From Variovorax sp. PAMC26660 (GTDB taxonomy: Bacteria > Pseudomonadota > Gammaproteobacteria > Burkholderiales > Burkholderiaceae_C): a stretch of DNA of 64,000 nucleotides. The notes under the pieces were generated by a model. It was given only the letters and a program-made list of their open reading frames with translations. It searched no databases and had not been told where the DNA came from. The translations under genes and the position numbers were made by a program. The stretch lies in NCBI RefSeq assembly GCF_014302995.1, contig NZ_CP060295.1:682001-746000 (forward strand), in the 5' to 3' direction. Shown one piece after another: positions 8,771 through 41,738 of the stretch; position 1 is the first letter of the stretch; each line of letters begins with the position of its first letter.

Positions 8771-10441
8771 CTACTTGCGCAGGCTCTTCACGGCGCCGGA
8801 GAAGAAGCTGTAGAGCGCATCACCTGCGATCACGCCGCCCGCGAAGACTTCGAGCTTTTCGCGCGCGGACACGCCGACCACGCGATGCACGACAAGGCGG
8901 CAGGCGATGCCGGCCGCGACCATCCAGCCGGCCATCGGGCTTGCGATGAGAAGGCCTGTGGCGAACAGCACGCCCAGTTGCTGGCGCGAACCGCCCAGCA
9001 CTTGCAGGATCGCGCCCGGCACGGCCCACAGCGCCAGGTTGCGCGCCGTGTCGCCCGAGATGCCGGCCTTGATGGCAGCCACGTAAGCGGCATTGATGGG
9101 CGCCGTCTGGTGGTTGGCGAAGAACATCTTGTAGGTGCAAGCGACCACGACGATGGCCACCGCGAAGCCCACCATGCCGGCGATCATCTGTTCGCGCCGG
9201 CCGTCCAGCTCGAACGCGGTGCCCGAGGTTTCGCCACGCAGGATGTGGCCGGCCTTCAGGTCGTAGCCCATGTCTGCGAAGGCCGGGCCGGTGGCGGCAG
9301 AAAAGCCGGCCAGCACCACCAGCGCCTCGGGCGGAAAGCCGATCAGGATGCCGATGAGCAGCGAGATCAGCGCCACCGCGAACGCGGGGAACCAGCCCGA
9401 GTGCATCGCCGCGATGCCGACGATCAGCTCGTGCACGAAAGCCGCAAAGGTGCCGTAGACGACGAAGCACACGAGCATCGTGGGCGACATGCCGGTGTAT
9501 ACGCCGGTGCCGACGGCCAGCAGCACCATGATCGCGAGATAGCCGACGCTGCCCAGCCGCAGCGAGCGGCCCAGCGCGGTGGCGCCGCGTGCTTCCTGCG
9601 TGTCGGCGGCTGCGTTGCGCGAGCCGCTGTCGCGCTTCTTCAGCACCACGCGCCCCACCTGTACCAGCGCGACGATGCCGGCGCCGATCATCATGCCGTG
9701 CGGGACGTACAGCGCGCCGATGTCCAGGCCGAAGAGCGGCGCCGAATAGCCGCGCACCAGCAGCCCGATGCCGAAGGCGATCATGGCGCCGAGGCCGCCG
9801 ATCAGCGCCACGCCGAAGGCCGACATCGGCAGCTTGAACACCGCGCCCGCCACACCCGTTGCCAGCCCGCCGAGCAACAGCCACGCCTGCTTGCCACCGC
9901 CGTCACCGGCCTTGATGGCCTCGGCCGCGGCAATGCCCAGCGGCCACGGGTTCCTGGCCGGAAAGGCCGGCGTGTCGAACATGCGATAGAGCAGCCAGGC
10001 GTCGAGCAGCATCGCCAGGCTCACGCCCACCAGCATCGGCACCACCATGTCGGGCAGGCCGAAAAGAAAGGGAATGCCGATCGGCAGGAACAGGCTGTTG
10101 GCCGCGCCGAAGGTGGCCGACGAAATGCTGGTCTGCGCCAGGTTCTGCGCATGCACCGAGCGAAAGCCACGGAACATGGCCAGCGGCACCCGCGCCAGCG
10201 TCATGGCCGCGAGCGCGCCGATCAGCGAAGTGCTCGGCGTGATGCCCAGGCTCGCCAGCATCTGCATGCCGACGATGGCGCCGAACACGCTCAGTACCAC
10301 CGTGAGGATCAGGTTGGCGGGTGCCAGCGCCTTTGGATGTGGGTGATGGTGCGGGCCGCTCGATGCCTGCGCAGCCAGCCGGGCCTTCGATGCAGCGCCT
10401 TCGTCGTGCAGCGGTGCGAGCGCCGTCACTTCATGGGTCAT
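8771..10441 (-). CDS. OPT/YSL-family transporter
   Basis: 556-aa polytopic membrane protein with about 13-15 hydrophobic segments spread over the whole length. The His-rich cytoplasmic N-terminus (GPHHHPHPKAL) precedes the first segment. The repeated small-residue helices and the MGYDLKAGHILRG and PMAGWMVAAGI regions fit the oligopeptide transporter (OPT) superfamily; a bacterial member with catabolic neighbours probably imports a small organic acid, peptide or hydantoin-like compound. Two in-frame ATGs occur, 10447 and 10441. AAGGA directly abuts the first, so the second has correct spacing and is chosen. It is first in the operon with the DUF917 and racemase genes, divergent from the IclR regulator. 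Confidence 0.8.
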   Translation of the reverse strand: MTHEVTALAPLHDEGAASKARLAAQASSGPHHHPHPKALAPANLILTVVLSVFGAIVGMQMLASLGITPSTSLIGALAAMTLARVPLAMFRGFRSVHAQNLAQTSISSATFGAANSLFLPIGIPFLFGLPDMVVPMLVGVSLAMLLDAWLLYRMFDTPAFPARNPWPLGIAAAEAIKAGDGGGKQAWLLLGGLATGVAGAVFKLPMSAFGVALIGGLGAMIAFGIGLLVRGYSAPLFGLDIGALYVPHGMMIGAGIVALVQVGRVVLKKRDSGSRNAAADTQEARGATALGRSLRLGSVGYLAIMVLLAVGTGVYTGMSPTMLVCFVVYGTFAAFVHELIVGIAAMHSGWFPAFAVALISLLIGILIGFPPEALVVLAGFSAATGPAFADMGYDLKAGHILRGETSGTAFELDGRREQMIAGMVGFAVAIVVVACTYKMFFANHQTAPINAAYVAAIKAGISGDTARNLALWAVPGAILQVLGGSRQQLGVLFATGLLIASPMAGWMVAAGIACRLVVHRVVGVSAREKLEVFAGGVIAGDALYSFFSGAVKSLRK

Positions 10442-10466
10442 GGTCATTCCTTGAAAGCTCCATATT

Positions 10467-10542
10467 TTGGAACTACATCCAATAAAATAGAACCGAATGA
10501 TAGATCGGCGCAATCCGCTGTCAAGACGTGTTCGCGCCGATC
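10467..10542. promoter_or_regulatory. Two inverted repeats in the OPT/IclR divergent promoter
   Basis: TTGGA-N6-TCCAA is perfect at 10467-10482 within an A/T-rich stretch. Further right, GATCGGCGC (10503-10511) and GCGCCGATC (10534-10542) form a perfect 9-bp repeat with a 22-bp spacer. Either could be the IclR-type operator controlling both directions. The 158-bp gap holds no gene. Confidence 0.55.
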
Positions 10543-10600
10543 CGGGAAGACCCCGACGCTGTCGAACCTATGATCCCCAACCCGCCACAAGCCAAGAAAT

Positions 10601-11374
10601 ATGAGCACCCTCGCCAACGCCATGGACGTCCTGAAGCTGATCGCGCGGCTGCGCCGCGACATCACGGTGACGGACGTGGTGACCGAGCTGGGCCTGCCGA
10701 AAAGCTCCGCCTCGCGCACGCTGAGCATGATGGCCGGCTACGGTTTTCTCGACCGCGATGCGGCCACCCGCGCCTACCGGCCGGGCGGCGTGATCATGGA
10801 AGCCTCCTACCACTTCCGCGCATCGCGCAACACGGCGTCACTGGTGGAAGAAGCCCTCGACGCATTGGTGCGCGAGACCAGCTTCACGGGCTACATCAAC
10901 GTGCTCGACGGGGTCGACACGCTGGTGATCCAGATGCGTACCGGCGCCGGCGCGCTGCAGATCTACACGCCGCCGGGCAGCCGTGCGCCGGCCTATTCGA
11001 GCGCCATGGGCCGCGCGCTGCTGGCCCGCCAGAGCGACGAAGAAGTGACGGCGCTGCTCGGCAGCCGGCTCGACCAGGGCCGCGGCCATGCCCCCAAGAC
11101 GCGAAAGGATTTGCTGGGCCGGCTGGCCGTGATTCGCGAGACCGGCTGGGCGTTGTCGCGCGGTGAATACGTGACCAACGTGGCCGGCATCTCCGCGGCG
11201 GTGTTCGATGCCGCCACGCGCCAGACCTACGCCTTCGGCATCGCGCTGCCGGCGGAAATGCTGTCGGAGCCGCTCATCGAGCGCTTCAGCGCGATCGTGC
11301 GCGACGCCGCCAGCAGCGTCGGCAAGCGGGTGGGCGATCCGTATTGGCTCGGCTTCGGTGCATCAAATGCCTGA
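10601..11374 (+). CDS. IclR-family transcriptional regulator
   Basis: 257 aa. The N-terminal winged helix-turn-helix spans roughly residues 1-65 (TVTDVVTELGLPKSSASRTLSMM is the recognition region). The C-terminal IclR effector domain follows, with YSSAMGRALLA and SRGEYVTNVAGISAAVFD. It is divergent from the OPT/DUF917/racemase operon and precedes an ABC importer, so it probably controls one or both in response to the imported compound. The SD is weak (AAGAAAT), but the ATG at 10601 begins exactly at the conserved domain. Confidence 0.88.
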   Translation: MSTLANAMDVLKLIARLRRDITVTDVVTELGLPKSSASRTLSMMAGYGFLDRDAATRAYRPGGVIMEASYHFRASRNTASLVEEALDALVRETSFTGYINVLDGVDTLVIQMRTGAGALQIYTPPGSRAPAYSSAMGRALLARQSDEEVTALLGSRLDQGRGHAPKTRKDLLGRLAVIRETGWALSRGEYVTNVAGISAAVFDAATRQTYAFGIALPAEMLSEPLIERFSAIVRDAASSVGKRVGDPYWLGFGASNA

Positions 11375-34172: not shown

Positions 34173-35003
34173 ATGCCCTGGCACGCCCGTCTCCACCTCG
34201 ACTACCAAAAAGAAGCCGCCCGCACCGTCGCCCGTTTCCGGCATGACGGCCCGCTGCGCATCCTGCAGAGCCTGTACCCCGAAGGCGACACCGTCTGCCA
34301 CAACGTGCTGGTGCATCCGCCAGGCGGCCTGGTGGGTGGCGACACGCTCGACATCGACATCGAGGCCGCCGACGGCAGCCACGGCCTGATCACCACGCCC
34401 GGCGCCTCGCGCTTCTACCGCTCCGAAGGCGAGCTGGCGCTGCAACGCACGCGCATCCGGCTGGCGGCTGGCGCGCGGCTCGAATGGCTGCCGCTCGAAG
34501 CGATCTGCTACAGCGGCTGCCAGGCCGAGAACCGGCTGAACATCGAAGTCGAACCCGGCGCCGAGCTGATCGGCTGGGACGTCACCGCGCTTGGCCTGCC
34601 AAATGCCAACCAACCCTTCGAGCGCGGCACCTACCTGCAGCACATCGAAGTGCCTGGCGTTTGGCTGGAGCGCGGACGCATCGACGCGGCCGACCATCGA
34701 CTGCTGCAAAGCCCGCTCGGGCTGGGCGGCCACCGCTGCATGGCATCGCTGTTCTTCGTGGCGGGCTCGCCGATGGCACGCGCGCGTCGCGACGCGCTGC
34801 TTGCCCAGGCGCGCGAACTGCTCGATGCGCACGGCCTGCAGGACAGCGCGGGCGCCACCAGCCCACATCCGGAAGTGGTGGTGCTGCGCGTGCTGACGCC
34901 CGTGGTCGAGCCGGCGATGAAACTGCTGCGGCAGGTCTGGCTGGCTTGGCGAAACGAGCTGTGGCAACTGAGCGCAGCCATGCCGCGCATCTGGGCGACC
35001 TGA
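34173..35003 (+). CDS. ureD: Urease accessory protein UreD
   Basis: 276 aa. Family blocks are HPPGGLVGGDTLDIDI, TTPGASRFYRS, EAICYSGCQ (equivalent to the usual E-ifF-GR stretch) and FERGTYLQHIEV. UreD helps insert nickel into urease as part of the UreDFG complex. It is isolated: ureABC, ureE, ureF and ureG are not in the window, and the next gene is unrelated. It may act with a urease operon elsewhere, or be left from a rearranged cluster. The ATG at 34173 has no clear SD. Confidence 0.88.
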   Translation: MPWHARLHLDYQKEAARTVARFRHDGPLRILQSLYPEGDTVCHNVLVHPPGGLVGGDTLDIDIEAADGSHGLITTPGASRFYRSEGELALQRTRIRLAAGARLEWLPLEAICYSGCQAENRLNIEVEPGAELIGWDVTALGLPNANQPFERGTYLQHIEVPGVWLERGRIDAADHRLLQSPLGLGGHRCMASLFFVAGSPMARARRDALLAQARELLDAHGLQDSAGATSPHPEVVVLRVLTPVVEPAMKLLRQVWLAWRNELWQLSAAMPRIWAT

Positions 35004-35111: not shown

Positions 35112-36002
35112 ATGCCTGCGCACGACACCCAGAACGAGAACACGCGGCTTCACCGGCGCCTTGCGAAGTTCAACGCCGAGCGGCTCAGGCTCGGCGTCCC
35201 CTCTCCACGGTGGCGGGACGATCTCACCAACGAGCATCAATTCCGGCTGCTGGAAGGCCACTACCTCGAAACCCTGCGCGCCACGGTGCAAGCGCAGACG
35301 GCAGGCGCCGCGGGCAACGCAGCGCACTTCGTCGAGTGGTTCCAGGCCCTCGAACACACCGGGCCGGGCCAGCAGCACCCGTTGTTCGACTGGCTGGCGC
35401 ACGAAGCCACGCTGCCGCAGATGCGCTGGTTCCTCACGCAGGAAGCTGCGGGCGAAGCGGGCTTCGAGGACCTGCTGGCCTACACCCAGGTCAAGCTGCC
35501 GCCGCAGCCCAAGCTCGAATGCGCGCGCAACTTCTGGGACGAGATGGGCCACGGCAAGCAGAGCGCGATGCACGGCCAGATGCTCGAACACATGGTGCGT
35601 GAACTCGACCTGCACCCGGGCATCGACACCACCGTGTGGGAATCGCTCGCGCTCGCCAACACCATGGTGGGCCTGGCGACCACCCGCCGCTACGGCTACC
35701 ACGCCATCGGCGCGCTCGGTGTCATCGAACTCACTGCGCCCGGCCGCGTGAAGCAGGTGGCGGCCGGCATGCGCCGCCTGGGCCTGAGCGGGCGTGCGCG
35801 GGCCTACTTCGACCTGCATGGGGCGCTCGATGTGTCGCATGCGCGCGCATGGCTGCGCGAAGTGATCCGCCCGCTGGTCGAGGCCGACCCGGCCTGCGGG
35901 CAGTTCATCGCCGAAGGCGCGCTCATGCGGCTGGTGTGCGGCGAGCGCTGCTTCGCGCGCTACAGCGAAGCCTTGCGCACCGAGGAGGCGCTCGCATGCT
36001 GA
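35112..36002 (+). CDS. Iron-containing redox enzyme (haem-oxygenase-like diiron oxidase family)
   Basis: 296 aa, predicted all-helical. Potential metal ligands in the expected order are E111 (LTQEAAGE), E144 and H147 (WDEMGHG), E206 (GVIE), H236, D240 and H243 (DLHGALDVSH). This is the ligand pattern of haem-oxygenase-like diiron oxidases, which include N-oxygenases, decarboxylases and desaturases such as SznF, UndA and BesC. The ATG at 35112 has an AGGAA SD. It is first of five coupled genes; the next gene starts 7 bases before its stop. Substrate unknown. Confidence 0.78.
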   Translation: MPAHDTQNENTRLHRRLAKFNAERLRLGVPSPRWRDDLTNEHQFRLLEGHYLETLRATVQAQTAGAAGNAAHFVEWFQALEHTGPGQQHPLFDWLAHEATLPQMRWFLTQEAAGEAGFEDLLAYTQVKLPPQPKLECARNFWDEMGHGKQSAMHGQMLEHMVRELDLHPGIDTTVWESLALANTMVGLATTRRYGYHAIGALGVIELTAPGRVKQVAAGMRRLGLSGRARAYFDLHGALDVSHARAWLREVIRPLVEADPACGQFIAEGALMRLVCGERCFARYSEALRTEEALAC

Positions 36003-36940
36003 ATGCCGCCGGCGTTCTGCGCGAGGTGGCCGCCACCGGCTATCGCTTCACCACGGTCACGCCGCTGACCCATCAGCGCGTCATGGCCCGGCGCGAACCC
36101 GGCACGACGTTGCGGGACATCTTCGGCTGGAACCTGCCGTTCGAGACCGGCGCCGTCTCGCCGTCGATGCTGGCCGGCATGAAGGACGCCGGCATCGTGC
36201 GGCATTCGGGCACGCTGCTGCAAAGCACCGTGCGCATTGCCAGCCTTGGCGACGACCTGTTCTTTCATTCGGCCTACCCGACCGTCCAGGAGAACGCGGT
36301 TTTCTTCGGGCCGGATACCAGCCGCTTCGCGCGCTTCATCCGCAATGCCTTGCAGCCGCGCCGGGCACACACGCCACGCCCGCTGCGCGTGCTGGACGTG
36401 GGCTGCGGCAGCGGCGCGGGCGGCGTCGCCGCAGCGCGTACATTGGCCGAAGCCGGCTTGTCGTCAGCGGTGGTCATGAACGACATCAACCCGCTGGCGC
36501 TGCAATTCACCGCCGTCAACGCAGAAGTGGCACGAGTGCCGGTGACGCTCGCGCAGGGCGATGCGCTGTCGGCTGTCGAAGGCGACTTCGATCTCATCAT
36601 TTCCAACCCGCCCTACCTCGACGATACGGCACAACGCGCATACCGGCACGGCGGCATGCGGCTCGGCCGGGCGCTGAGCGCGCGCATCGCGGCCGAGTCG
36701 CTCCAGCGGCTGGCACCGGGCGGGCAACTGTTGCTCTACACCGGCGTGGCCATCCTCGACGGGGGAGACCCGTTCCTCGCGGAGATGCAGCCACTGCTGG
36801 AAGCGTCCGGCTGCGACTGGTCGTACGCGGAGATCGACCCCGACGTGTTCGGCGAAGAACTCGAGCGGCCGGTGTATGCGCACATCGACCGCATCGCGGC
36901 TGTCGGACTCGTCGCCACCCGCCCCTCGGGAGCTGCCTGA
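35996..36940 (+). CDS. SAM-dependent methyltransferase (HemK/MTS-like)
   Basis: 314 aa. The SAM motif VLDVGCGSGAGG is at about residues 132-143 and the catalytic NPPY at residues 204-207, as in N-methyltransferases of the PrmC/RsmC type. The first 120 residues do not resemble PrmC's substrate-binding domain, and the operon context argues for a small-molecule substrate. The ATG at 35996 has a GGAGG SD and overlaps the upstream stop; the stop at 36940 overlaps the next ATG by one base. Confidence 0.82.
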   Translation: MLNAAGVLREVAATGYRFTTVTPLTHQRVMARREPGTTLRDIFGWNLPFETGAVSPSMLAGMKDAGIVRHSGTLLQSTVRIASLGDDLFFHSAYPTVQENAVFFGPDTSRFARFIRNALQPRRAHTPRPLRVLDVGCGSGAGGVAAARTLAEAGLSSAVVMNDINPLALQFTAVNAEVARVPVTLAQGDALSAVEGDFDLIISNPPYLDDTAQRAYRHGGMRLGRALSARIAAESLQRLAPGGQLLLYTGVAILDGGDPFLAEMQPLLEASGCDWSYAEIDPDVFGEELERPVYAHIDRIAAVGLVATRPSGAA

Positions 36941-38034
36941 TGGCCGCCGAACTCGACTTCGGCGTGGACACCGCCCGACTGGCCGTGGTGCGCGAATGCA
37001 GCGTGCTCGAACGCATGCCCAAGTGGCTCATCTGCGTGCCGCTGGTCATGCAATGGCTGTGGCTCTCGCTGCGATACGGCGGCGCCACGGTGCCGTCCGC
37101 CGCCAACCCGCACATCACCTCGGGCGGGCTGGTGGGCGAAGGCAAGCTCGAATACTTCAGCGGCATGGGGCCGCTCGCGCGCTCGGTCACGGCCGACTAC
37201 TCCGGGGTCTTCAACGACGGCTTGGCAACGGAAGCCTCGCTTCAACAAGCCATGACTGACAGCGGCCTCGCCTTCCCCGTGGTCGCCAAGCCGAACCTCG
37301 GCCTGTGCGGCTACGGCGTTCGCATGCTGGCCGACATGGCGGCCCTGAAGGCCTACCTGCACGCCTTCCCGCGCGATGAAACCGTGGTGCTGCAGCGCTA
37401 CCTGCCGCAGGAGGGCGAAGCCGGCATCTTCTACGCGCGCGACCCGGTCAGCGGCCAGGGCCGCATCATCGGACTGGCGCTGCGCTACTACCCGCGCGTG
37501 ACGGGCGACGGCCACAGCACGGTGGCCGAACTGGTGGCGGCCGATGTGCGCGCGCGCCGCATCGCACGCTCGCCGCGCCACGAATGCGGCGTGCCGCCCG
37601 ACAGCGTGCCCGCCGCCGGGCAGCAGGTGCGGCTGGCCACCATCGGCTCGACCCGCGTGGGCGGGCTGTACCGCGACGGCGCGGCGCTCATCACGCCGGA
37701 GCTCGTGCGCGCCATCGATGCGGTCGCGCGCGACATGCCCGACTTTCACTTCGGGCGCTTCGACGTGCGCTACGACAGCCTGCGCGAGCTGGGCGCCGGG
37801 CGCGGCTTCACCCTGATGGAGATCAACGGCGCAGGCTCCGAAGCCATCGAGGCCTGGGACCCGGACACCGGTGTGCTGCAAGGCTTTCGCATGGTGTTCG
37901 CCAAGCAGCGGCTGCTGTTTGCCATTGGCGCCGCCCAATGCAGGGCCGGCGTGCGGCCGATCGGCCTGCTCGCGCTCGCACGGCTCAACCGGCGGCAGAA
38001 TCGGCTGGTCGACCGGTACCCGCCCTCCAACTGA
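36940..38034 (+). CDS. ATP-grasp ligase (D-Ala-D-Ala ligase / carboxylate-amine ligase-like)
   Basis: 364 aa. The ATP-grasp fold shows VVAKPNLGLCGYGVRML (the phosphate-binding Lys and Gly-rich loop), VLQRYLP (adenine-binding strand), and the Mg-binding end FDVRYDSLREL...FTLMEINGAGSEAIEAWDP. Such enzymes join a carboxylate to an amine via an acyl phosphate. It starts on the methyltransferase stop (TGATG). Together with the N-acyltransferase downstream it suggests assembly of an amino-acid conjugate. I recognise no specific product. Confidence 0.78.
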   Translation: MAAELDFGVDTARLAVVRECSVLERMPKWLICVPLVMQWLWLSLRYGGATVPSAANPHITSGGLVGEGKLEYFSGMGPLARSVTADYSGVFNDGLATEASLQQAMTDSGLAFPVVAKPNLGLCGYGVRMLADMAALKAYLHAFPRDETVVLQRYLPQEGEAGIFYARDPVSGQGRIIGLALRYYPRVTGDGHSTVAELVAADVRARRIARSPRHECGVPPDSVPAAGQQVRLATIGSTRVGGLYRDGAALITPELVRAIDAVARDMPDFHFGRFDVRYDSLRELGAGRGFTLMEINGAGSEAIEAWDPDTGVLQGFRMVFAKQRLLFAIGAAQCRAGVRPIGLLALARLNRRQNRLVDRYPPSN

Positions 38035-38042
38035 GTCATCGC

Positions 38043-38864
38043 ATGCAGACGGAAACCCTCGCCCGGCACACCTCATCGCATCACTGGGCCGCCAACACGC
38101 ACGCGCTCCGGCTGCAAACGCACTGGGCCGACTGCGAAGACGACGTGCGCGACGCACAGCGCCTGCGCTACCGGGTCTTCGCACAGGAGATGGGCGCGCG
38201 CCTGACACCGCCCCACGGCACGCCGCCCGGCCTGGATGTCGATCGCTTCGATCCGTTCTGCGACCACCTGCTGGTGCGCGCCGTCGATCCGGTGCACGGG
38301 CCCGGCCCGCTCATCGGCACCTACCGCGTGCTGACACCCGAGGCGGCGCGGCGCGCGGGCGGTTTCTACACCGACACCGAGTTCGACCTGGCCCCGCTCG
38401 CGCCGCTGCGCGGCCGCGCACTGGAGCTGGGCCGCTCGTGCGTGGACGCCGACTGGCGCTCGGGCAGCGTGATCATGGCGCTGTGGACCGCGCTGGGGCA
38501 GTACATGGTCGAGCACCGGCTCGACACCATGATCGGCTGCGCCAGCATCGGCATGGACGACCACGGCCTGACGGCGGCACGGCTGTGGCACCGGCTGTGC
38601 CGCACGCACCTGGTCGAGCGGCGCTGGCGCGTCGAGCCGCGCGTCGCATTGCCGCTGGACACCGATGCACAGGCCGATGACGACAGCGACACCGCACCGC
38701 CCGCCGCGCCCCCGCTCATCAAGGGCTACCTGCGCTGCGGCGCGCGCCTGCTTGGCCCGCCCGCGCTCGACCTCGCCTTCAACACCGCCGACCTGCCGCT
38801 GATGCTGCGCGTGGACGACGTGGCGCCGCGCTACCGCCAGCACTTCTTCGGCGCCCCCGCGTGA
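38043..38864 (+). CDS. OlsB-like N-acyltransferase (ornithine-lipid type GNAT)
   Basis: 273 aa. Segments typical of OlsB and hemolysin-like acyltransferases are AQRLRYRVFAQEMGARL, FDPFCDHLLV, LIGTYRVLTPE, ELGRSCVD and PPLIKGYLRCGARL. OlsB transfers a 3-hydroxyacyl chain from acyl carrier protein to the alpha-amine of ornithine, making lyso-ornithine lipid. No OlsA-like second acyltransferase follows; instead an LplT-like transporter starts 4 bases before its stop. The ATP-grasp enzyme 8 bases upstream could supply or alter the amine. Substrate ornithine is inferred, not shown. Confidence 0.8.
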   Translation: MQTETLARHTSSHHWAANTHALRLQTHWADCEDDVRDAQRLRYRVFAQEMGARLTPPHGTPPGLDVDRFDPFCDHLLVRAVDPVHGPGPLIGTYRVLTPEAARRAGGFYTDTEFDLAPLAPLRGRALELGRSCVDADWRSGSVIMALWTALGQYMVEHRLDTMIGCASIGMDDHGLTAARLWHRLCRTHLVERRWRVEPRVALPLDTDAQADDDSDTAPPAAPPLIKGYLRCGARLLGPPALDLAFNTADLPLMLRVDDVAPRYRQHFFGAPA

Positions 38865-40066
38865 CGGTGCACCTGCGTTCGCGGCGCGCGCTGGCAACGG
38901 TGGTCGCAGCCCAGTTCTTCAGCTCGCTGGCAGACAACGCACTGCTGATCGTCGCCATCGACTTGCTCATGCAGCGCCACGCGCCCGGCTGGATGACGCC
39001 GGCGCTCCGGCTGTTCTTCTATCTTTCCTACGTGCTGCTGGCGGCCTTTGCGGGTGCGGTGGCCGACGCGGCACCCAAGGGCCGCGTGCTGATGGTCACC
39101 AACCTCATCAAGCTCGGCGGCTGCGGCCTGTTGCTGCTCCACGTGCAGCCGCTGGTGGCCTACGCGCTGGTCGGGCTGGGTGCGGCGGCCTACTCGCCGG
39201 CCAAGTACGGCATCCTGCCCGAGCTGCTGCCGCAGGACGCGCTGGTGGGCGCCAACGGCTGGGTCGAGGCGGCCACGGTGCTGTCGATCCTGTTCGGCGT
39301 GGCGCTCGGCAGCACGCTGGTCGGCAGCGGCCAGTCGCTGCTGGCCATCGGCGCGATCTACCTGCTGGCTGCGGCGTGCACGCTCGCGATTCCGCACAGC
39401 CCGGCGCGCAACCGCGCGGCGCTGGCGCATCCGGGCGTGCTGCTGCGGGGCTTCGGGCATTCGCTGGCCCTGCTGTGGCGCGACCCCGATGCGCGCATTT
39501 CGCTGGCCGTCACCAGCCTGTTCTGGGCGGCCTCCGCCACGCTGCAATTCCTGGTGCTGCGCTTCGCCGCCGAACGGCTGGGCATGACGCTGTCGCAAGG
39601 CGCGCTGCTGCAGATCGCGGTGGCTGTCGGCATGGCGATGGGTGCGCTGGGCGCATCGCGCTGGTTTCCGCTGCCGCGTGCCCTGCGCGCGCTGCCGCTG
39701 GGCGTCGTGCTCGGCGCCGCGGTGCTGCTGATGACACTGGTCACGCAGCCCGCCGTCGCGGCCGCGCTGCTGGTGGCGATCGGCGCGTTCGCCGGCCTGC
39801 TGCTGGTGCCGATGAACGCGCTGCTGCAAAGCCGTGGCCTGCTGCGCATGAACCCGGGCCAATCGATCGCGGTGCAGAACTTCAACGAAAGCCTGGCCTC
39901 GCTGGCCATGCTCGGTGTGTACGGCGCGCTGATCTACGTCGAGGCGCCGCTGCTGCCCACGCTGGCGGGCTTCGGCGGCTTCCTGGTGCTGGCCATGGGC
40001 GGCATCTTCGTCTGGTCGCGGCGCCTGCGGCCGGCGCGCGACGCGCTCGCCGCCCAGAACGTGTAA
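38861..40066 (+). CDS. MFS transporter, LplT (lysophospholipid flippase)-like
   Basis: 401 aa with about twelve hydrophobic helices. The start VVAAQFFSSLADNALL and the block YSPAKYGILPELLPQDALVGANGWVE match LplT, which flips lysophospholipids across the inner membrane. GTG at 38861 overlaps the acyltransferase stop. No Aas acyltransferase, the usual LplT partner, is present, so the cargo here is more likely the product of the preceding genes, for example a lyso-aminolipid (inference). Confidence 0.83.
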   Translation: MTVHLRSRRALATVVAAQFFSSLADNALLIVAIDLLMQRHAPGWMTPALRLFFYLSYVLLAAFAGAVADAAPKGRVLMVTNLIKLGGCGLLLLHVQPLVAYALVGLGAAAYSPAKYGILPELLPQDALVGANGWVEAATVLSILFGVALGSTLVGSGQSLLAIGAIYLLAAACTLAIPHSPARNRAALAHPGVLLRGFGHSLALLWRDPDARISLAVTSLFWAASATLQFLVLRFAAERLGMTLSQGALLQIAVAVGMAMGALGASRWFPLPRALRALPLGVVLGAAVLLMTLVTQPAVAAALLVAIGAFAGLLLVPMNALLQSRGLLRMNPGQSIAVQNFNESLASLAMLGVYGALIYVEAPLLPTLAGFGGFLVLAMGGIFVWSRRLRPARDALAAQNV

Positions 40067-40151: not shown

Positions 40152-41738
40152 GTGAATTTCAGAAAACCTGCCAACAGCCTGGTTGTGCGCCTGCTCGTGA
40201 TGGGCCTGTTGATGGCCATCGTGGGAACCGCCACCAGCTACATCCAGCTCAGCCGCTTCCTGCGGGAAGACCTGACCCAATCGGTGGCGGTGCAGCAAAC
40301 GGCGCTGGCCGCCTACGTGGCACGCGATGTCGACAACTACCTCGGCGAGCGCCTGTCGTTCCTGGAACGCCTGGCGGCCACCCTGCCGCCGGAACGCCTG
40401 GCACAGCCCGAGCGGCTGCGCGCGTGGCTGCAGGAGCGCAGCACGCTGAGCCCCGTTTTCCCGCTCGGCCTGAAGGTCGCGGACGCCACCGGCAAGCGGC
40501 TCGACGGCGACGGGCAACTGGTCACGGACGGTTCGGAATACATGGCCGCGCGCGAGGGACGGTCCGCACTGGGCCGTCCGCAGGCGGCACCCTCCGGGCA
40601 CTCGGTGCTGCCCATGGCCGTGCCCGTGCGCAACGCCGCCGGGCAAGTCACTGCCCTGTTGCTCGGCACGGCGGACCTCTCGGCCGACGGCCTGCTCGAT
40701 CATCTGCAACGCGGGCGCGTGGGCCAGGACGGCGGCATCCTGGTGGTGTCGCCGCGCGACCGCATCTTCGTGGCCTCGACGGACGTCTCGATGTCGCTCA
40801 CGCCGACCCCGCCCGAAGGCGTGAACCTGCTGCACGACCGCGCCATGACAGGTTTTCGCGGCAGCGGCACGACGCGCAACGCCAAGGGCATCGACGAGAT
40901 TTCCGCCATTGCATCGGTGCCGAACAGCGGCTGGTTCGTGGTGGCGCGGGTGCCGGTTGCGCAGGCGCTGGCGCCGGTGGGGCGCATGCAGACTTTCATC
41001 CTGCAGCAACGCGCACCCGCCGTGATCTCGGTGCTCGTCGTGATCGGGCTGATCATGGCCTGGCTGCTGCGCCCGCTGTTGCGTGCCGCCGACCAGGCCG
41101 ACCGGATGACCCGCGGCGAACTCGCGCTGGCGCCGCTGCGGGTGGTGCGCAACGACGAGATCGGGCACCTGACGCAGGCCTTCAACCGGCTGCTGGCCAA
41201 GCTGCTCGACAACCAGCAGGCGCTGGCGCACCTGGCCCACCACGACACGCTGACCGACCTGCCCAACCGCAAATTGCTGGACGAACGGCTGCAGCAGGCG
41301 CTGCTCCGAGCCAGGCGGCATGCCCACCAGGTGGCCGTGCTCTACCTCGACCTCGACGGATTCAAGACACTCAACGACACCTTCGGCCACGAGGCGGGCG
41401 ACAAGGCGCTCAGGGAAATCGCGCACCGGCTGCAGGCACTGGTGCGGCAGACCGACACGGTGGCGCGCATCGGCGGCGATGAATTCGTGCTGCTGGCCGC
41501 CGACTTCGCAGAGGCCCCGGAACAGGGCGCCTTGACCTTGGCACAACGATGCATCGACGCGATCGCCCAGCCCTTGCAACTGGCGCATTCCGAGACGGTC
41601 ATCGGCGTGTCGATCGGCATCGCCCTGGGCAACGGCAACGAAACGCCGCAAGACCTGCTCGCCGCAGCCGACAAAGCCATGTACCGGGCCAAGCAAAGCG
41701 GGCGCAGCAGCTATGCGATGACGCCCGCTTCGAGCTGA
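40152..41738 (+). CDS. Membrane diguanylate cyclase (sensor-HAMP-GGDEF)
   Basis: 528 aa. TM1 is residues 8-30, a periplasmic Cache-like sensor of about 260 residues follows, and TM2 is near residue 295 (VISVLVVIGLIMAWLL). A HAMP segment leads to the GGDEF domain. The catalytic motif is intact, GGDEF at residues 441-445, with the inhibitory RxxD site (RQTD) five residues before it, so it should make c-di-GMP under product feedback. The GTG at 40152 is chosen because TM1 follows closely; a TTG at 40110 is an alternative. No EAL domain is present. Confidence 0.9.
   Translation: MNFRKPANSLVVRLLVMGLLMAIVGTATSYIQLSRFLREDLTQSVAVQQTALAAYVARDVDNYLGERLSFLERLAATLPPERLAQPERLRAWLQERSTLSPVFPLGLKVADATGKRLDGDGQLVTDGSEYMAAREGRSALGRPQAAPSGHSVLPMAVPVRNAAGQVTALLLGTADLSADGLLDHLQRGRVGQDGGILVVSPRDRIFVASTDVSMSLTPTPPEGVNLLHDRAMTGFRGSGTTRNAKGIDEISAIASVPNSGWFVVARVPVAQALAPVGRMQTFILQQRAPAVISVLVVIGLIMAWLLRPLLRAADQADRMTRGELALAPLRVVRNDEIGHLTQAFNRLLAKLLDNQQALAHLAHHDTLTDLPNRKLLDERLQQALLRARRHAHQVAVLYLDLDGFKTLNDTFGHEAGDKALREIAHRLQALVRQTDTVARIGGDEFVLLAADFAEAPEQGALTLAQRCIDAIAQPLQLAHSETVIGVSIGIALGNGNETPQDLLAAADKAMYRAKQSGRSSYAMTPASS

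Follow-up and report, generated by a model that had tools for sequence, protein, structure and literature searches.

What do five tightly packed genes of the soil bacterium Variovorax sp. PAMC26660 make together? The genes lie at 35112-40066 of the window, the whole 64-kb stretch of DNA that was analysed (C1:682001-746000 of a genome consisting of one contig of 7.39 Mb), and encode, in order, a haem-oxygenase-like diiron enzyme (HDO), a methyltransferase (MT), an ATP-grasp ligase, an OlsB-like N-acyltransferase and an LplT-like transporter. The reading favoured here, at a probability of roughly 0.5, is that the product of this cassette is a modified aminolipid of the ornithine-lipid type, to which the ATP-grasp ligase would attach a basic amino acid that is N-oxygenated and probably also N-methylated, and that the lipid is moved across the membrane. 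The initial annotation of this DNA had proposed an N-acyl amino-acid or aminolipid pathway encoded by the five genes as a fixed set. That interpretation is partly supported, being right in its direction and wrong on the five as a fixed set.

Five coupled genes and their enzyme families

All five open reading frames are on the + strand, and the coupling by overlaps or gaps of at most 8 bases claimed for them was confirmed at the junctions, which in gene order are an overlap of 7 bases, an overlap of 1, a gap of 8 and an overlap of 4. Such overlaps suggest translational coupling rather than the set stoichiometry that had been read from them.

The HDO (35112-36002) matches the haem-oxygenase-like family PF14518 (146.8 bits against a cut-off of 28.9) and has the haem-oxygenase fold with three His and three carboxylate ligands. 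Its nearest relative in both sequence and fold is the lysine N-oxygenase HrmI, followed by RohS and SznF when judged by fold. Since the diiron enzyme most resembles N-oxygenases, oxidation of a nitrogen is probable, and the protein is a predicted HrmI-like amine N-oxygenase. The combination of oxidase, methyltransferase and ATP-grasp ligase proposed initially is thereby upheld, with the oxidation sharpened to a nitrogen. Another HDO is DtpC, a desiccation protein of Acinetobacter, whose required residues E143, H153 and H232 (PMC13232832) are numbered almost as E144, H154 and H236 here.

The MT (35996-36940) is a class I S-adenosylmethionine methyltransferase resembling HemK, PrmC and RsmC. It matches the MTS family PF05175 (52.6 bits, cut-off 23) and stays below the cut-off of the HemK/PrmC models (66.4 against 199.1). 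The NPPY motif, which points to an N-methyltransferase, is well kept, with N204, P205 and P206 invariant and Y207 present in at least 93% of 38 sequences. The ligase (36940-38034) carries a hydrophobic N-terminal helix at residues 28-46. Its fold and weak NCBIfam matches to cyanophycin synthetase mark it as an ATP-grasp protein, and the fold together with conserved catalytic-type residues agrees with a carboxylate-amine ligase. Searches of Pfam (no match at E 0.001) and NCBIfam (cyanophycin-synthetase matches far below cut-off) assign it to no curated ATP-grasp family.

The OlsB-like protein (38043-38864) matches PF13444 (111.4 bits against 22.4) and scores below the cut-off of the OlsB equivalog models (167 against 320 and 166.1 against 350), as do the other OlsB of this genome (158.8 against 350) and the OlsB-like protein of a relative, L106 (229.6 against 350). 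The alternative that the acyltransferase belongs to a known ornithine-lipid operon finds no footing here, as the other OlsB lies elsewhere in the genome and the cluster copy is a paralogue of it with 52% identity. NCBIfam scores do not separate the two copies, and a difference in substrate between them is not claimed. The other OlsB (L045, G000:C1:5764000-5782000) adjoins genes that resemble polyphosphate kinase, SixA, Ppx and pst genes (names taken from the starts of the sequences), neighbours that would be as expected for a phosphate-starvation ornithine-lipid gene.

The transporter (38861-40066) exceeds the cut-off of the LplT model NF008397 (450.8 bits against 297) and adjoins the OlsB-like gene and a GGDEF gene rather than aas. 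PF01553 has no match within the window, so that the OlsB-like gene is not linked to an OlsA at this locus either. The initial statement that OlsA and Aas are lacking thus holds for the cluster and fails for the genome, which encodes an OlsA-like protein (C1:1522798-1523544, 125.6 bits against a cut-off of 300) and an LplT-acyltransferase fusion (C1:2149884-2151806, 522 bits against 1349). The genome has a second LplT. LplT is an optional member of the cassette: a search next to the cluster gave none in L004, L006, L008, L010 and L012, while L013, L014 and L015, with more diverged cluster proteins, do have it. Strains whose cluster lacks LplT in the scan include V. gossypii DSM 100435 and V. 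guangxiensis DSM 27352.

Gene order and the exchanged oxidising pair in relatives

A scan with an ATP-grasp alignment yielded 535 relatives, Bacteroidota among them. The loci of the best 80, which represent the family members closest to the query, were kept; many of these loci come from metagenome assemblies, and each extends up to 8 kb to each side, less at contig ends. Genes were called with a codon-model caller, some being cut or frameshifted (L073, L079, L129), and were grouped into families by single-linkage BLAST, with model names tested on single representatives. HDO and MT genes are adjacent on the same strand in 27 of the 80 loci (23 with a gap of at most 10 bases), as are MT and ATP-grasp genes in 27 (21), ATP-grasp and OlsB-like genes in 25 (12) and OlsB-like and LplT genes in 16 (13). 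Given this recurrent adjacency, the clustering is not chance. The order HDO-MT-ATP-grasp-OlsB-like also recurs outside Variovorax, for example in Ramlibacter, in agreement with the single co-conserved pathway that had been proposed.

Loci with HDO and/or MT are termed type I, and those with YqcI/YcgG (PF08892) and/or DUF1989 (PF09347) type II, the Pfam names being those of the representative L085. There are 39 type I and 20 type II loci, none with both and 21 with neither. YqcI and DUF1989 genes are adjacent on the same strand in 18 of the 80 loci, and DUF1989 and ATP-grasp genes in 19. The YqcI protein of L085 exceeds the cut-off of the GntA guanidine N-hydroxylase model (246.2 bits against 145), and its DUF1989 protein matches the urea-amidolyase-associated and trimethylamine-N-oxide demethylase models below their cut-offs. 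Mutual exclusion of the two pairs gives a Fisher p of 1e-7, for which the ATP-grasp tree is the fairer statement, the loci being related. This tree, made by a quick method and rooted at the midpoint, has 73 rows, namely the window and 72 of the 80 loci; the remaining eight (L079, L100, L108, L110, L113, L123, L127, L129) have no ATP-grasp call of at least 300 residues. Type II forms one clade (20 rows and L084; SH-aLRT 97) nested among type I rows, and the contig of L084 ends about 200 bases upstream of its ATP-grasp gene. Twelve oxidase-free rows, including the VTT-bearing ones, lie on the far side of the midpoint root. The pattern reads as a single en-bloc swap of the oxidising pair, in which HDO and MT were replaced by a GntA-like haem N-hydroxylase and a DUF1989 protein.

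The limits of the cassette are drawn by L167, a relative without it, in which NMT1, deaminase and UreD genes lie directly beside GGDEF and LysR genes and about 110 bases separate UreD and GGDEF. Because L167 keeps both flanks without the five genes, these are a single gained or lost cassette, and the UreD-like gene on the left (34173-35003, + strand, PF01774) and the GGDEF gene on the right (40185-41738, + strand, PF00990, scored from 40110) are outside it. Membership of the UreD, deaminase and NMT1 binding-protein genes was rejected, as they stay with GGDEF in L167. In regions L168-L170 the GGDEF gene alone is present, and they are not counted as empty sites. That the five are merely neighbouring genes with unrelated roles draws some support from the LplT and OlsB-like genes not always being present; it is contradicted by the overlapping order maintained across families and by the presence or absence of the set as a unit between the same flanks, and is very improbable.

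The patchiness of the cassette speaks for another explanation, in which the product is a small secreted lipopeptide-like compound, such as an N-acylated and N-oxidised dipeptide acting as antimetabolite or metal binder, and LplT is its efflux pump. An ATP-grasp orthologue occurs in 14 of the 61 genomes of the genus (remaining matches are weak, E 7e-8 or worse), and the site in L167 is empty. Furthermore, peptide antimetabolite clusters with an HDO and ATP-grasp exist, mangotoxin being an example, and there are at least 25 such cluster types (PMC13185094). This explanation is nevertheless considered somewhat unlikely, given the lipid-gene partners described below.

Several further features of these loci are recorded here. 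A promoter scan returned 0 sites and a terminator scan 3 against 1.9 expected, and viral contigs scanned with the single ATP-grasp protein, which detects close relatives only, gave no match. The UreD-like gene is a lone one, near genes for an NMT1-type binding protein and a cytidine-deaminase-like protein, with urease alpha distant at C1:1101243. In other gammaproteobacteria (L041, L042, L039) the ATP-grasp gene lies beside genes for DinB-like and TANGO2/NRDE proteins (Pfam on L041 and L039). L085 has a second ATP-grasp gene (10022-10936), related to the D-cycloserine synthetase DcsG (175.4 bits against 360) and adjoining an MprF-like gene, and its family was found in four Rhodanobacter-type loci. 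In Rhodobacterales, the ATP-grasp gene is followed by a member of an alpha/beta hydrolase family (L118:9231-10202, L128:9080-10012) with a faint OlsI match (25.2 bits against 385 in L118).

Ties to ornithine-lipid genes and lipid transporters

Among the 80 loci, those at which an OlsB-like gene was seen number 27 of the 39 of type I, 6 of the 20 of type II and 5 of the remaining 21. Among the 42 genomes without one at the locus, 41 encode a PF13444 protein elsewhere (best E 1.7e-22 to 5.4e-36), the sole exception being the 2.2 Mb assembly of L095. Against a background of 153 out of 369 genomes of the window's class this gives a Fisher p of 9e-14, in a comparison where the background genomes are all of one class and some of the 42 belong to other classes and phyla. 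Within the class sample, all seven ATP-grasp genomes have a PF13444 protein (p 0.002, or 0.005 without the own genome; p 0.03 with the six other genomes counted once per genus and the background uncollapsed). Three of the 41 genomes were inspected: the Rhodanobacter genome of L085 encodes an OlsF over its cut-off (727.9 bits against 620), and those of L071 and L097 encode OlsB-like proteins (158.9 and 157.6 against 350), followed in L097 by a 247-residue protein.

In addition, one PlsC/OlsA-type family shares the locus with OlsB-like and ATP-grasp genes in L041, L042, L080, L090, L103, L106 and L115 (L041 and L042 being more distant), and with ATP-grasp alone in L102. Only two of these copies are named by OlsA models, those of L041 (171.7 bits) and L106 (150.5), and both fall short of the cut-off of 300. 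In L039, an OlsF-like fusion (389.4 against 620 bits) stands beside a distant ATP-grasp gene. This genome-wide tie to the OlsB/OlsF family and the OlsA-like genes in the same locus bear out the OlsB-type aminolipid chemistry proposed initially.

Three unrelated kinds of lipid-transport-type protein accompany the ATP-grasp ligase in relatives, in line with the claim of a lipid transporter in the pathway. LplT occurs in 14 of 39 type I and 3 of 21 other loci, and an MprF-flippase-like family in 13 of 20 type II loci and in L084 (131.8 bits against 600 in L106; PF03706, 46.7 against 33.4, in L107). A VTT domain is fused to ATP-grasp in L112, L118 and L119, and its gene overlaps that of ATP-grasp by 4 bases in L126. 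The OlsB/OlsF family kept elsewhere when not local, the OlsA-like gene sharing the locus in some relatives and the three kinds of transport partner argue against a secreted product and for a membrane lipid.

A membrane lipid might also arise more directly, with HDO and MT acting on the side-chain amine of ornithine lipid itself and the ATP-grasp ligase capping its carboxylate with a simple amine, as in cerilipin, the taurine-ornithine lipid of Gluconobacter. The 21 loci with an ATP-grasp gene and no local oxidising pair suggest that the ligase may work on a bare aminolipid, and Gluconacetobacter is among the genera with type I loci (L127, L131). Hydroxylation, N-methylation and the addition of taurine are known modifications of ornithine lipids (PMC12493201). 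HrmI, however, anchors a free amino acid through the alpha-amine and the carboxylate (PMC13108848), groups that an N-acylated lipid does not offer, which would count against this route if the present HDO keeps these contacts. Direct tailoring is considered unlikely, and a separately modified amino acid joined to the lipid is preferred.

Several observations weigh against the preferred reading, in addition to the one-class background of the PF13444 comparison. The type II swap is a single event in the tree, so the 80 loci are not independent. Moreover, 21 loci lack either oxidising pair, and an HDO query, in a search with no positive control, matched nothing in the 27 genomes without a local pair; because of these two results N-oxidation is regarded as a module and not as the core. 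In the Herminiimonas HDO of L068 (5835-6710), three of the six ligand positions (E144, H236 and H243) no longer have residues of ligand type, while MT, ATP-grasp, OlsB-like and LplT genes persist, and no HDO was called in a second Herminiimonas locus (L070). At 12 of the 39 type I loci, including some on cut contigs, and at 14 of the 20 of type II no OlsB-like gene was seen; the former and the absence of LplT in several relatives are what tells against a fixed set of five. The MprF-like protein of L106 has no Pfam match. The best N-terminal window of the ATP-grasp protein has a median hydropathy of 1.39 against 1.26 in the rest and is higher in 46 of 78, which is not clearly transmembrane and not decisive for an anchor.

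A proposed route and its known counterparts

Gene content, order, co-occurrence, the swap and the predicted folds are established, and from them a route can be inferred in its reactions, substrates, product and order of steps. The OlsB-like enzyme, judged by its family, would transfer a 3-hydroxy-acyl chain to the amino group of ornithine or of a closely similar amino acid. The HDO would act on a basic amino acid, Lys, Orn or Arg, and oxygenate a nitrogen of its side chain, by analogy with the reaction class of HrmI, RohS and SznF, and the MT, given its NPPY motif, may methylate a nitrogen of the same amino acid. The ATP-grasp ligase, whose hydrophobic helix probably keeps it at the membrane, would link the modified amino acid to the acyl amino acid by an amide bond, most likely activating the free carboxylate of the lipid, as folds of the cyanophycin-synthetase, ArgX and RimK type suggest. 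O-acylation would fall to an OlsA, whose gene lies away from the cassette in this genome and at the locus itself in some relatives. Transfer of the lipid, or of its lyso form, across the membrane would be the task of LplT or, in relatives, of a protein of the MprF-like or VTT kind. In the sister clade, the haem N-hydroxylase and DUF1989 protein would stand in for HDO and MT.

A broader proposal, offered tentatively, is that bacterial membranes contain aminolipids whose head groups carry a nitrogen-oxygen function (hydroxylamine, nitro, N-nitroso or N-hydroxyguanidine). A membrane-associated ATP-grasp ligase would couple a derivative of Lys, Orn or Arg that is already N-oxygenated to the acyl amino acid produced by OlsB, the finished lipid would be flipped outward, and two unrelated oxidation modules would serve one ligase. 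If true, the synthesis of membrane lipids of the ornithine-lipid type would gain a ligase step and nitrogen oxidation, the ligase being of an ATP-grasp family for which one genome scan gave 535 relatives. Head groups of this kind could serve to bind metals, to retain or release reactive nitrogen, or to alter surface charge. The cassette gives a test of a joint role for this uncharacterised ATP-grasp family, the GntA-like enzyme with DUF1989, and the MprF-like and VTT partners. It also yields candidates for the ligases behind ornithine lipids modified at the carboxylate, a group whose taurine form is chemically known.

Searches of open PMC literature, with subscription papers and supplements outside their reach, gave no pathway of this kind among the papers listed, in keeping with the initial view that no pathway with this gene set has been described. 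For ornithine lipid together with ATP-grasp, the sole match mentions ATP-grasp in a reference title only.

The cassette shares with ornithine-lipid synthesis by OlsB/OlsA and OlsF an OlsB-type N-acyltransferase and OlsA- or OlsF-like proteins at the locus or elsewhere, but has in addition a methyltransferase, an ATP-grasp ligase and an HDO resembling N-oxygenases, which no ornithine-lipid paper among those listed by the searches describes. Cerilipin is alike in that it would need a ligase acting on the carboxylate of ornithine lipid, an enzyme that is not known to have been described. The mangotoxin cluster likewise pairs an HDO (MboA) with ATP-grasp ligases, but MboA oxidises carbon, and the terms methyltransferase and N-acyl are absent from the main text of PMC13185094. 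The lysine N-oxygenases HrmI/BelK are the closest in sequence and fold among solved structures, with six ligand positions that align, although the cassette HDO is about 29% identical and sits with a methyltransferase in an aminolipid cassette. The exchange of oxidising enzymes has its counterpart in SznF and ChmN, where a diiron HDO is replaced by a haem YqcI/YcgG enzyme in related pathways (PMC10849742); here, in contrast, a pair is swapped for a pair, HDO and MT for YqcI and DUF1989, and the partners are aminolipid genes.

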